A DNA stretch of 5,120 nucleotides from Accumulibacter sp. (GTDB taxonomy: Bacteria > Pseudomonadota > Gammaproteobacteria > Burkholderiales > Rhodocyclaceae). The notes beneath the pieces are model-generated. The model saw only the letters and a list, made by a program, of their open reading frames with translations. It was not told the origin of the DNA and did no database searches. Positions 171 through 5,120 of this stretch are shown piece after piece (position 1 is the first letter of the stretch; every line of letters begins with the position of its first letter). Location of the stretch: the NCBI GenBank assembly GCA_003538495.1, contig DPSD01000637.1:1-5120 (forward strand). The letters run 5' to 3'. The position numbers were made by a program, and so were the translations under genes.

Positions 171-178
<8 letters not shown>
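62..178 (-). CDS. Small overlapping ORF, 38 codons, unrecognised
   Basis: An ATG (178-176) overlaps the end of the ATPase gene as ATGAGTAG, an 8-base overlap typical of coupled operon genes. It has AAGGG seven bases upstream. The product begins MSRAIQETKRRGARR, which is strongly basic, then has a helix-like hydrophobic stretch (FPVVLAIAKQCRELANLMF) and stops at TAG 62-64. I do not recognise the family. It may be a genuine micro-protein, the 5' end of a gene broken by frameshift (the frame ending at 3-5 stays open for 30 codons downstream of 95), or a chance ORF. Against it: the first 120 bases are only 45% GC, unlike the operon, and the ORF contains several inverted repeats. Start placement and ribosome site are the only positive evidence. 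Confidence 0.3.
69..93. repeat. Paired TGGCCA palindromes (direct and inverted)
   Basis: GTTGGCCA occurs at 67-74 and again at 86-93. Because TGGCCA is self-complementary, the two copies form both an 8-base direct repeat and a 6-base inverted repeat with a 13-base loop. No T-run follows on either strand, so terminator activity is doubtful. Confidence 0.45.
108..121. repeat. Perfect 14-bp palindrome TTGGCGATCGCCAA
   Basis: The sequence equals its own reverse complement over 14 bases. Its core GGCGATCGCC has the form of the cyanobacterial HIP1 repeat and contains a GATC site. A single copy is visible, so it may be coincidental or a protein-binding site; no loop is available for a normal hairpin except by opening the centre. 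Confidence 0.6.
127..163 (-). repeat. Inverted repeat / potential RNA hairpin after the ATPase stop
   Basis: CAGGAAAC (127-134) and GTTTCCTG (156-163) are perfect 8-base complements separated by 21 bases. In the minus-strand RNA an inner GCGC-CGCG-GUGC stem-loop can nest inside (141-152, with one G:U pair). The structure begins 8 bases after the ATPase stop. No U-run follows, so it is not a standard intrinsic terminator. It could stabilise the 3' end, pause polymerase or weaken downstream translation. Confidence 0.5.
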
Positions 179-3509
<3,331 letters not shown>

Positions 3510-3516
3510 GGTGGTG

Positions 3517-3855
3517 TTACTCCGATTCGAGCACGGTTTTCAGTTGTTCCAGAAGCCCCGGCAGCGCGAGCTGCACGGTATCCCACAGGATGTTCTGGTT
3601 GATGTCGAAATACGCGTGCACCAGGCGATTGCGCATGCCGACAATCTGCGGCCAGGGTACGCCGGGAAACTCGCTGCGCCCGGCTTCGCTCACCTGAGTT
3701 GCGGCCTCGCCGACAATCTCCACGGCACGAGTCAATGCCAGGCGTAACATCGGGTCGCTCTCCAGGTCCTCCCGTTTACGCCCCTCGACGAAAGCCAGCG
3801 CCTGGCTAGCCGCATCGATCATGTGGCCGACCCGCCAACGATCATCCGGCGACAT
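3517..3855 (-). CDS. hepT: HepT (DUF86) HEPN-family RNase toxin
   Basis: This 112-residue, mostly helical protein belongs to the DUF86/HepT branch of the HEPN superfamily. The N-terminus (DDRWRVGHMIDAASQAL) is typical of the family. The catalytic RX4HXY motif is intact as R75, H80, Y82 in the segment MRNRLVHAYFDI (nt 3610-3633). R and H are the expected RNase residues, and Y82 matches the tyrosine that partner MntA proteins modify with AMP. The ATG at 3855 is preceded by GAGGT (3861-3865) with a 6-base spacer, and it overlaps the last 14 bases of mntA, so antitoxin and toxin are probably translated in a coupled way. The TAA stop lies 7 bases before the ATPase start. The toxin role, RNA cleavage restrained by MntA, comes from characterised pairs; its link to the flanking methylase and ATPase is inference from position. 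No truncation or missing key residue is seen. Confidence 0.93.
   Translation of the reverse strand: MSPDDRWRVGHMIDAASQALAFVEGRKREDLESDPMLRLALTRAVEIVGEAATQVSEAGRSEFPGVPWPQIVGMRNRLVHAYFDINQNILWDTVQLALPGLLEQLKTVLESE
3520..3523 (-). promoter_or_regulatory. Ribosome binding site of the DUF499 ATPase, embedded in the hepT 3' end
   Basis: GGAG on the minus strand forms the last sense codon of hepT, immediately before its TAA stop (3517-3519). It sits 10 bases before the ATPase ATG at 3509. Ribosomes finishing hepT would terminate over the entry site of the next gene, suggesting coupled translation. Confidence 0.65.
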
Positions 3856-4147
3856 ACTGCACCTCGGCCGTTCGAACCACCTCGTCGCGGAAGTAGCGAC
3901 TCAAGTCCTGCGCGGTACGCAGGTCGACTTTCCGCCCCCCGAGGGCTTGCGACAACTCGATTTCGATCTGCGCCATGTCGAGCAACGTCGGTCGCGCGTC
4001 AGGGAAGAACTCGACCAGCAGGTCGACGTCGCTGTCCGGCCTCGCCGTTCCCTTGAGTTGCGAGCCGAACAGCGACAGACAGCGAATGTTGTGCGCTTCG
4101 CAGAAGCGCGCCAGGGTCTCTTCGTCGAGGTTCAATAAACGTTTCAT
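3842..4147 (-). CDS. mntA: MntA-type minimal nucleotidyltransferase antitoxin
   Basis: This is a 101-residue protein of the MNT (minimal nucleotidyltransferase, polymerase-beta-like) family. The signature GSX10DXD is intact: G28-S29, then D40 and D42 within the PDSDVDLLVEF segment (nt 4022-4066). A third likely metal-binding acid is D75 in GRKVDLRT. The length is normal for the family. The start is set by AAGGAG six bases upstream; an in-frame ATG 33 bases further up would overlap the methylase gene and has no better site. In characterised HepT-MntA pairs, MntA transfers AMP groups from ATP to a tyrosine near the HEPN active site and so neutralises the toxin. All residues needed for that chemistry are present here. 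The gene ends 14 bases inside hepT, consistent with coupled translation. Sampled GC (55% over 4081-4140) is a little below the flanking large genes. Assignment is by motif and neighbour, not by a database search. Confidence 0.92.
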   Translation of the reverse strand: MKRLLNLDEETLARFCEAHNIRCLSLFGSQLKGTARPDSDVDLLVEFFPDARPTLLDMAQIEIELSQALGGRKVDLRTAQDLSRYFRDEVVRTAEVQYVAG

Positions 4148-4153
4148 GAAACG

Positions 4154-4159
4154 CTCCTT
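4154..4159 (-). promoter_or_regulatory. Ribosome binding site fixing the mntA start
   Basis: The minus strand reads AAGGAG followed by 6 bases and then ATG (4147-4145). This near-ideal Shine-Dalgarno favours the ATG at 4147 over the longer in-frame ATG at 4180, which would lie inside the end of the methylase gene. Confidence 0.85.
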
Positions 4160-4166
4160 CGCTGCT

Positions 4167-5120
4167 TCATTCTTGCCCAAACAGGTCGGGCGTACCAGGC
4201 GCCACCGCGCGGGGCTTTTCGGCGGCCAGGCGGGTGATTTCCGGCCAGCTCTGCACGAGACCGTTATAGGCCATGGCCTCGACGGCGCGCTTCTTGCGTT
4301 CGCACAGGGTATAGAGACGGTAACAGAGTTCGCGGGCGGTTTCCGCCTTGCCGCCGAGCTTGGCGATCAGCGCGGCGGCGGCGCTCTCACCGCCGGATTC
4401 CAGCGCGCGAATGAGGTGGTGCACGATCTCCCAGTGCGTGAGCCGCTTGTCAGTGAGCGGATCCCAGTTGGCGGGCAGCTCGGCGGGTTTAAGCAGGCGC
4501 ACCCTACCGGCCCGGGATACCAGAATGCCGGCTTCGTCGAGGCCGCCGACGCTGGTGTTCTTGGACTTGGAAAGCTGCTCGGCGACACCGTAATCGCCTT
4601 CGGCAAAGCCGGTCTGGTCGAACCAGGTGAGCGCCCAGCGGCTGTCGGCGTCGAAGTCGCCTTCCTGCTCGGCCAACGATTCGTCGAGGGTCTGGTTGAT
4701 CAGCGCCAGCGCGGACCGCACCGGCAGCGGTTTGCCTTCGGCGTCGAGAACCTTCGCGTAGCGGGTATAGACGGCCATGCCGGGGCCGATCGCCGCTTGT
4801 GCCAAGTCCACCGGAGCGATGTTGCCGGCCTGCAGGTGTGCCAGCGCCAGGGGAAGTTCAGCCTTGAGTGCAGTCACGAAATCGCGGCGGGTGGCGGTGG
4901 TGGCGGTGGCGGGGCGCGGCCGACAGACGAGGACGATACTGGAAGCGAGGGCGTTGGAGTCCATTGCACGCATACGGCCAGATCCCTCAGTTCGTATCGG
5001 CCATGTTCCACTGATTCCGAAACCGGCGCGGATCACCGCGTCGAGGAAAGTCTCCCAGCCGGTATTCGTCGTGCCCTGGGTACTGTCACTCTCTGCCTGC
5101 TTGAAGGCGTAGTAGATGGT
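4167..5120 (-). CDS. DUF1156 / COG1743-type DNA adenine methylase, C-terminal part (5' end outside window)
   Basis: The visible 317 residues run in frame from the right edge to a TGA at 4167-4169. The true start and the catalytic N-terminal half lie outside the window. A GTG at 5034-5036 could be mistaken for a start, but the frame stays open upstream of it and encodes the conserved TIYYAFKQ segment, so it is internal. Visible residues 1-70 look like the end of the Rossmann methyltransferase fold: TIYYAFKQ, then GWETFLDAVIRAGF, GTWPIRTE and the strand ASSIVLVCRPRP. The remaining ~250 residues, including NIAPVDLAQAAIGPGMAVY and EQEGDFDADSRWALTWF, match my recollection of DUF1156 methylase tails. 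The family is annotated as adenine-specific DNA methylases, presumably marking host DNA. The SAM-binding and DPPY-type motifs are not in view, so activity cannot be judged here. It is the first visible gene of the operon, 19 bases ahead of mntA. A short Thr-Ala repeat lies near visible residues 71-76. Confidence 0.9.
   Translation of the reverse strand, partial: TIYYAFKQAESDSTQGTTNTGWETFLDAVIRAGFGISGTWPIRTEGSGRMRAMDSNALASSIVLVCRPRPATATTATRRDFVTALKAELPLALAHLQAGNIAPVDLAQAAIGPGMAVYTRYAKVLDAEGKPLPVRSALALINQTLDESLAEQEGDFDADSRWALTWFDQTGFAEGDYGVAEQLSKSKNTSVGGLDEAGILVSRAGRVRLLKPAELPANWDPLTDKRLTHWEIVHHLIRALESGGESAAAALIAKLGGKAETARELCYRLYTLCERKKRAVEAMAYNGLVQSWPEITRLAAEKPRAVAPGTPDLFGQE
4890..4907. repeat. 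Tandem 9-bp repeat inside the methylase gene
   Basis: GGTGGCGGT occurs twice back to back and is followed by further GG runs (to about 4914). On the minus strand it reads in frame as Thr-Ala-Thr, Thr-Ala-Thr, within the PATATTATRR stretch between the methyltransferase fold and the C-terminal region. The closely spaced GG runs on the plus strand could in principle form a weak two-tier quadruplex. The unit length is a multiple of three, so gain or loss of a unit would keep the frame. Confidence 0.6.

Follow-up and report, generated by a model that had tools for sequence, protein, structure and literature searches.

A HepT/MntA-type toxin-antitoxin pair between hmaB and hmaC of an Accumulibacter Hma operon, with apparent exchange of the toxin plus half the antitoxin among related loci

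The window analyzed here is a 5,120-nt stretch of an Accumulibacter sp. contig (GCA_003538495.1, DPSD01000637.1), whose genes lie on the minus strand in the order hmaB, mntA, hepT and hmaC (Table 1). The spacings reported in the initial annotation, i.e., gaps of 19 and 7 nt around the pair and an internal overlap of 14 nt, agree with the gene boundaries, and its placement of a toxin-antitoxin pair between a methylase gene and a DUF499 ATPase gene was confirmed by PADLOC, which identified the flanking genes as HmaB and HmaC of one operon; the annotation had not recognized this operon as Hma. Its suggestion of shared ribosome sites held for hmaC, whose likely GGAG is located within the last codons of hepT, but not for mntA, which has its own AAGGAG in a spacer that is nearly the same in three related loci (L001, L002 and L015). 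No transposon scar was seen in the window by eye, and no sigma-70-like promoter or terminator was predicted at positions 3300-4500, which is a weak test.

Table 1. Features of the 5,120-nt window
Feature	Position	Strand	Basis
hmaB, C-terminal 317 residues, DNA adenine methylase, open at window edge	4167..5120	-	PADLOC HmaB 3.4e-136
hmaB-mntA spacer, 19 nt, with AAGGAG ribosome site of mntA	4148..4166	-	sequence reading
mntA, minimal nucleotidyltransferase antitoxin, 101 aa	3842..4147	-	Pfam Polbeta/NTP_transf_2; PADLOC PDC-S09 1.6e-23
GSX10DXD catalytic motif, MntA residues 28-42	4022..4066	-	motif definition in PMC7641770 (accessible text)
Site equivalent to the exchange breakpoint of relatives L015 and L002 (mntA nt 135-142)	4006..4013	-	
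mntA/hepT overlap, 14 nt	3842..3855	-	
hepT, HEPN-family RNase toxin (predicted), 112 aa	3517..3855	-	Pfam HepT-like 7.3e-25; AlphaFold model and fold ranking
RX4HXY motif of HepT (R75, H80, Y82)	3610..3633	-	invariant in 23/23 aligned HepTs
GGAG, likely ribosome site of hmaC, in last codons of hepT	3520..3523	-	sequence reading
hmaC, DUF499 AAA+ ATPase with N-terminal Swt1-type HEPN domain	171..3509	-	PADLOC HmaC 1199.9 bits; Pfam HEPN_Swt1 2.2e-35 and DUF499
HEPN domain of HmaC, residues 11-123, second predicted RNase of the operon	3141..3479	-	Pfam

A near-identical locus was found in Candidatus Accumulibacter contiguus (L001; HmaC 99% identical), where the C-terminal end of hmaA, a gene whose position falls outside our window, is located upstream of hmaB. 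According to the accessible text of PMC12839542, the anti-phage system Hma was reclassified in 2026 as Type-1 BREX-related, and HEPN domains, in some cases fused to MNT, are reported as suicidal backup effectors located in, or adjacent to, loci of BREX and related systems. The gap between hmaA and hmaB appeared to be a second, usually filled slot, exceeding 150 nt in 36 of 38 readable loci (a count including both L004 and its duplicate L023); in L001, it holds a Septu PtuA-PtuB pair (L001:2431-4451). The HEPN domain of HmaC carried the motif RN.[WY].H in 70 of 72 HmaC rows (sequences below 1000 residues, i.e., L021, L062 and L126, left out, and the duplicate L023 counted), and the other two, RHRWAH and RHVWAH, still conform to RX4H, so that this motif is present in all 72 rows whether the pair is present or absent. 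Within the same HEPN region, at window positions ~3290-3410 (HmaC residues ~34-73), nucleotide identity to L014, L022 and L114 fell to 41-53%, apparently reflecting two allele types. Other irregularities of the core genes were an hmaA that looks split between two overlapping frames (L022:88-3734), and an hmaC match ~1.27 kb longer than expected, as if it contained an insert (L042:5437-10040). No match to HmaC was found among 50,697 phage records.

The assignment of the pair to the class I HEPN/MNT (type VII) toxin-antitoxin modules is well supported by its sequence features. MntA matched the Pfam families Polbeta (5.9e-13) and NTP_transf_2 (2.2e-10), HepT matched HepT-like (PF01934), and the scores for PF01934 (87.4 bits vs. 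23.5) and PF01909 (41.2 vs. 21) were both above the gathering thresholds. With the NCBIfam models, MntA and HepT scored 53.2 and 34.9 bits, respectively, short of the curated cut-off of 60; these are narrow equivalog models, and the class definition in the accessible text of PMC7641770 consists of Pfam families plus motifs. The MNT gene lies directly upstream of the HEPN gene, as class I requires, and the initial description of a complete pair with all signature residues proved correct: GSX10DXD and R75/H80/Y82 are in place, and both motifs were intact in all 14 complete pairs found in this position. According to the same source, these motifs are tied to polyadenylylation of a HepT tyrosine. 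The AlphaFold model of HepT (mean pLDDT 90.8) retrieved 7bxo, 5yep and 7ae6, which are HEPN toxins of HEPN-MNT pairs, as the top three Foldseek matches (TMq 0.57-0.72, probability 0.99-1.00); since the E-values were weak (0.05-0.15, and 0 of 270 matches reached 0.001), the fold support lies in rank, probability and TM-score. With a single sequence, a search of the PDB yielded 1wot for MntA and no match for HepT, and a profile of 23 HepTs reached 5yep only at E 0.0057. HepT had no match among the PADLOC models, and Pfam shows it to be a single domain, with no HEPN-ABC NTPase fusion of the PrrC kind.

The pair looks functional and is under purifying selection. In comparison with L001, dN/dS was 0.15 for mntA, 0.07 for hepT and 0.07 for hmaC (first 500 codons), and the values against L003 were 0.29, 0.11 and 0.10, respectively; among the three loci as a whole, mntA and hepT ranged from 0.07 to 0.29 and hmaC from 0.07 to 0.10. 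In 13 of the 14 loci with the pair, hepT is co-directional with hmaC and stops 0-8 nt before its start (L052, where the hmaC-adjacent hepT is broken, is excluded, and the start listed for L022 deviates from the ATG by 3 nt), and a purine-rich, likely ribosome site of hmaC lies in the last hepT codons or across the hepT stop of these 13 loci. In loci lacking any insert, the end of hmaB supplies the likely site instead. That the pair is built into a defence operon, as first noted, is supported by selection and by its recurrence in 14 of 74 readable junctions; the annotation's further ideas, firing upon failure of the methylase or ATPase and addiction of the cell to the cassette, are conjectural. 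The truncated hepT next to an open hmaC in L052 counts against strong integration, and the 38 empty junctions imply that Hma can exist without the pair.

These counts come from a survey of homologous loci, as suggested with the initial annotation, which covered the best 80 of 567 confirmed hmaC relatives (L001-L080) plus 11 added loci (the window and ten fetched loci, L114 and L119-L127), a set of 91 biased to near kin. Exclusion of 16 loci without a readable hmaB end and of one duplicate left 74 distinct readable junctions: 38 were empty (up to 109 nt; limit 120 nt), 14, including the window, contained a class I mntA-hepT pair, and 22 had other or unrecognized content, so the pair recurs but is absent from 60. 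Of the cultured relatives, Lamprocystis purpurea DSM 4197 (L035) has the pair and Caballeronia glathei DSM 50014 (L007) has an empty slot. For L001-L080 alone, the corresponding numbers were 36, 12 and 19, with 13 junctions unreadable. A less biased draw covered 369 genomes from a single class, of which 17 had an HmaC relative; among 13 of these 17 examined, eight junctions were readable (two with the pair, three empty and three with other content), three were unreadable and two lay outside the classification. All 13 hepT matches (E<1e-5) in the 1,141,439 bases of L001-L080 were located in the hmaB-hmaC junction; the larger hmaA-hmaB gap and the examined flanks contained none. Such a concentration is far beyond chance.

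Profiles named the cargo in 12 of the 22 junctions with other content, and 10 of these 12 were defence- or toxin-like: zeta toxin (L005), Ser/Thr kinase-FHA (L012), PDC-M28C (L020), HATPase-DUF4325 (L027), PDC-S01 (L037), Ppl-like with Schlafen (L042), HEC-01 (L044), AAA with PIN (L051), 23S rRNA IVP (L060), PF05168 HEPN (L062), PDC-M45 (L063) and HEC-01A-like (L068). By eye, the cargo of L059, L066, L072, L078 and L120 resembled that named by profile and the cargo of L049 and L061 was transposase-like; no cargo was recognized in L070, L123 and L126. HmaC matched 137 plasmid records, and the slots of ten plasmid loci were read as five empty, two with a four-helix-bundle protein, one with HicA-HicB and two without a clear reading. 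The HicA-HicB slot, in Thermus thermophilus HB8 pVV8 (L153:3182-4948), is filled by this pair and two HTH genes. The initial statement that such pairs are usually free-standing is borne out to the extent that related pairs occur apart from hma: 17 of 31 rows in the HepT tree came from stretches (4.8-19.9 kb) without hmaB or hmaC matches, and in the seven such contexts listed, the recognizable genes look ordinary chromosomal by eye.

Phylogenetic analysis indicated that the pair is an optional and labile occupant of the Hma slot. Slot HepTs did not form one clade relative to the 17 HepTs from hma-less stretches (AU p 0.00038), with six changes between slot and non-slot, three of them forced by starred branches; the MntA tree required five changes (p 0.0185, bootstrap not settled). 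A single insertion inherited by all Hma loci was thereby ruled out. On the FastTree tree of 74 HmaCs, presence of the pair required eight changes, five of them forced, compared with a shuffled mean of 13 (0 of 500 shuffles as low), which suggests that the pair is clustered yet has been gained or lost repeatedly. When three slot states were distinguished, 26 changes were needed (shuffled mean 30.7; as low in 7 of 200).

Several slots contain more than one module. Two class I antitoxin frames each were found in L002 and L052, a second kind of MNT is also present in L002, L016 and L035, and the L014 slot additionally carries a zeta-like pair resembling that of L005 by eye. In five decayed modules (L002 twice, L016, L035 and L052), read where the slot was long rather than by systematic scan, the nucleotidyltransferase gene has an open frame, and its HEPN partner is truncated or missing. 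L062 has an open MNT frame together with a HEPN gene, and L020, with a HEPN-like ORF (by eye, no Pfam match) and no MNT noted, is a possible counterexample to MNT outlasting HEPN. The L002 slot holds a 354-nt repeat (80%) of the spacer plus mntA and, following a hepT truncated near codon 11, 63 nt that duplicate the beginning of hmaC (L002:6876-6938), an arrangement that we interpret as a recombination scar; this locus is a weaker witness, being either in decay or badly read, because its hmaC match has two in-frame stops. Stretches resembling dispersed repeats lie beside the decayed toxins at L052:7755-8000 and L035:7050-7360 (by eye).

Some antitoxins of the relatives appeared to be mosaic. 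L015 (filled) and L006 (empty) have sister HmaCs. Along hmaB of L015, 58 window-like sites against 107 L006-like ones changed to 22 against 2 in the last 114 nt (permutation p 0.0005). Within mntA, L015 switched at nt 135-142 from window-like (27 to 4) to L013-like (53 to 100), and the second antitoxin of L002 switched at the same place from window-like (29 to 6) to L009-like (47 to 100). This breakpoint lies directly behind the catalytic motif and was obtained in six comparisons (p 0.001-0.006); as breakpoints were located after inspection of the identity profile, the p values are post hoc. Between the window and the second L002 antitoxin, pS rose from 0.32 in the first 47 codons to 0.69 thereafter, and between the window and L015 from 0.39 to 0.56, whereas in the control comparison with L003 it was 0.24 and 0.14. 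Protein constraint as the sole cause was rejected, because synonymous sites show the mosaic too. In the DNA tree of mntA nt 1-141, the Accumulibacter sequences formed one group (75/96, not starred), and a single type-B group was rejected (p 0.007); in the tree of the rest of mntA plus hepT, a single Accumulibacter group was rejected (p 1e-77), and type B formed one group (100/99). Two kinds of antitoxin C-terminal half went with two kinds of HepT in the pairs compared (by eye). Thus, hepT and the 3' half of mntA appear to have been exchanged at one breakpoint among Accumulibacter relatives and, since L015 and L002 fall into different starred subgroups of the latter tree, this probably happened twice. 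L009 and L010 show a different irregularity, namely identical HepTs with a dS of 0.04 in hepT as compared with 0.19 in mntA and 0.15 in hmaC, perhaps from a recent hepT exchange.

The mosaic loci are metagenome assemblies, and chimeras were considered. For the L002 type, a chimera is less likely, because nine of the protein clusters listed, known from protein alone and perhaps not independent samples, were 96-100% identical to the mosaic antitoxin, and contigs as long as 318 and 466 kb carry two of these. Exclusion is less sure for the L015 type, for which three kin of this kind (91-93%) come from contigs no longer than 5.3 kb. As P0211 shares the odd upstream reading of L002, the tandem slot may also be present in another assembly, which perhaps stems from the same data. 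The breakpoint permutation test was liberal, giving p<0.05 in 14 of 22 runs (7/11 for hmaB and 7/11 for hmaC), with most breaks at some distance from the slot; recombination or unequal rates are therefore common on both genes. Significant switches near the slot were seen for L015 against L006 (-114) and for L016 (-12), and from the side of L006 against the empty L007 and L021 at -55 and -28; those in L066, L072, L027 and L022 were not significant, and L037 (-678, p 0.038) and L005 (-207 and -639; p 0.002 and 0.008) had breaks far from it. That cassettes travel together with the end of hmaB was not supported as a general rule. On the hmaC side, L015 showed no switch at the slot, and its difference from L006 could reflect either a gain in L015 or a loss in L006.

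In our view, the likeliest role of the pair, judged from its genes and their surroundings, is that of a backup abortive effector, and we lean, by a small measure, toward reading it as a type VII module that serves this purpose in the Hma cargo slot. MntA would adenylylate HepT on Tyr82 and keep it silent; infection would upset the balance between the two; and the freed HepT would cut RNA and arrest the cell, backing up the Hma nuclease and the HEPN domain of HmaC, with exchange of toxin alleles possibly helping it to stay ahead of phage inhibitors. This role is favored because the pair is under purifying selection, lies in an exact slot with mostly defence-like content and follows a published pattern. 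On the other hand, a second RNase may be redundant, since HmaC already has a HEPN RX4H motif in every row, and the five decayed modules with a truncated or missing HEPN partner show a pattern that a toxin retained for defence need not have. That antitoxin frames outlast toxins would better suit an addiction module, in which the pair mainly retains the Hma cassette and loss of the operon leaves free HepT, as would the likely hmaC ribosome site inside hepT and the stacked modules in L002, L014, L016, L035 and L052. We nevertheless regard addiction as unlikely: the pair is missing from 60 of 74 readable junctions, the toxin alone can evidently be lost, and the antitoxin acts by a covalent mark (accessible text of PMC7641770), so that the toxin presumably need not revive upon gene loss.

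The pair might also be a mobile passenger that entered a tolerant spot and is carried along, and hma-less pairs are indeed interspersed in the HepT and MntA trees, the 26 slot-state changes are hardly fewer than in shuffled labels, and some cargo has no obvious defence role (23S IVP or four-helix-bundle proteins, HATPase-DUF4325). We consider this improbable given a dN/dS of mntA-hepT about as low as that of hmaC, the tight co-directional junction with hmaC in 13 of 14 pair loci, the confinement of all 13 hepT matches to one junction, with none in the hmaA-hmaB gap or flanks, and the clustering of the pair on the HmaC tree. Least credible, and in our judgment very improbable, is a regulatory brake in which HepT/MntA acts on hma mRNA or on HmaC (e.g., by nucleotidylation of its HEPN domain), tuning rather than killing. 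Two HEPN domains do stand side by side in one operon, and the MntA frame of L052 is open beside an open hmaC although its HepT is truncated, but the HEPN of HmaC is of the Swt1 rather than the HepT type, and most readable junctions have no class I pair.

Several described systems are close to this one. Embedding of defence modules in Hma is already known, and the accessible text of PMC12988326, PMC10855318 and PMC12255303 reports 'guilt-by-embedding' and Hma-embedded candidates from a 2024 preprint by Payne; the initial annotation had missed this published pattern. PDC-S09, the model matched by MntA, is itself a candidate found by embedding (PMC12988326, PMC10855318). Like the HEC/PDC modules, which lie between Hma core genes and of which PDC-M05 is a nucleotidyltransferase plus HEPN pair, our module occupies a core junction; as far as the citing papers allow a comparison, it differs in having antitoxin and HepT as a pair, with a HepT that has no PADLOC model. 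The operon itself resembles Hma/Type-1 BR in hmaB, hmaC, the hmaA upstream in L001 and the HEPN-DUF499 fusion; PMC8565338 and PMC12839542 present a three-gene core, and their accessible text does not describe mntA-hepT at the methylase-ATPase junction as such. The type VII HepT/MntA of Shewanella oneidensis shares motifs, gene order and fold (predicted here), but similarity is low (the profile match to 5yep noted above) and the window pair is embedded in a defence operon. Toxic effectors as a second line within restriction operons are represented by PrrC in the PrrI type I R-M system (PMC3710099) and DarTG2 in a type I R-M island (PMC12255303); according to the accessible text of these papers, PrrC is a single protein that includes an ABC ATPase of its own and is held by the R-M complex, whereas the silencer in the window is a dedicated nucleotidyltransferase, and the DarTG2 toxin family is unrelated to HepT. 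HicA-HicB of pVV8 is a toxin-antitoxin pair at the same junction, but of an unrelated family and with two HTH genes added.

The apparent exchange of hepT with the 3' half of mntA is the new part of this analysis; such a mosaic was named in no title or abstract of the journal papers listed by literature searches, which were not aimed solely at it. Slot content varies among relatives and the junctions bear apparent recombination marks, and one tentative explanation, which we rate as possible but somewhat short of even, is that the slot is a cartridge site: recombination would swap hepT and the toxin-matching C-terminal half of the antitoxin, driven by phage counter-defence, and would leave the core genes and the modifying active site in place. 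In this scheme, recombination would be anchored on one side by the end of hmaB together with the conserved, catalytic half of mntA, and on the other by the beginning of hmaC.

Our results add one more toxin-antitoxin pair to the growing set embedded in BREX-like defence operons. To a specialist, the embedding itself will be unsurprising; the less expected part is the repeated breakpoint behind the catalytic motif of the antitoxin. The sister loci L006 (empty) and L015 (filled) and the mosaic antitoxins, whose halves have different histories, offer a natural experiment. Should the swap prove to be real and under selection, it would reveal how a changing toxin and its antitoxin stay matched, and the specificity of MntA for HepT could be tested with natural alleles.
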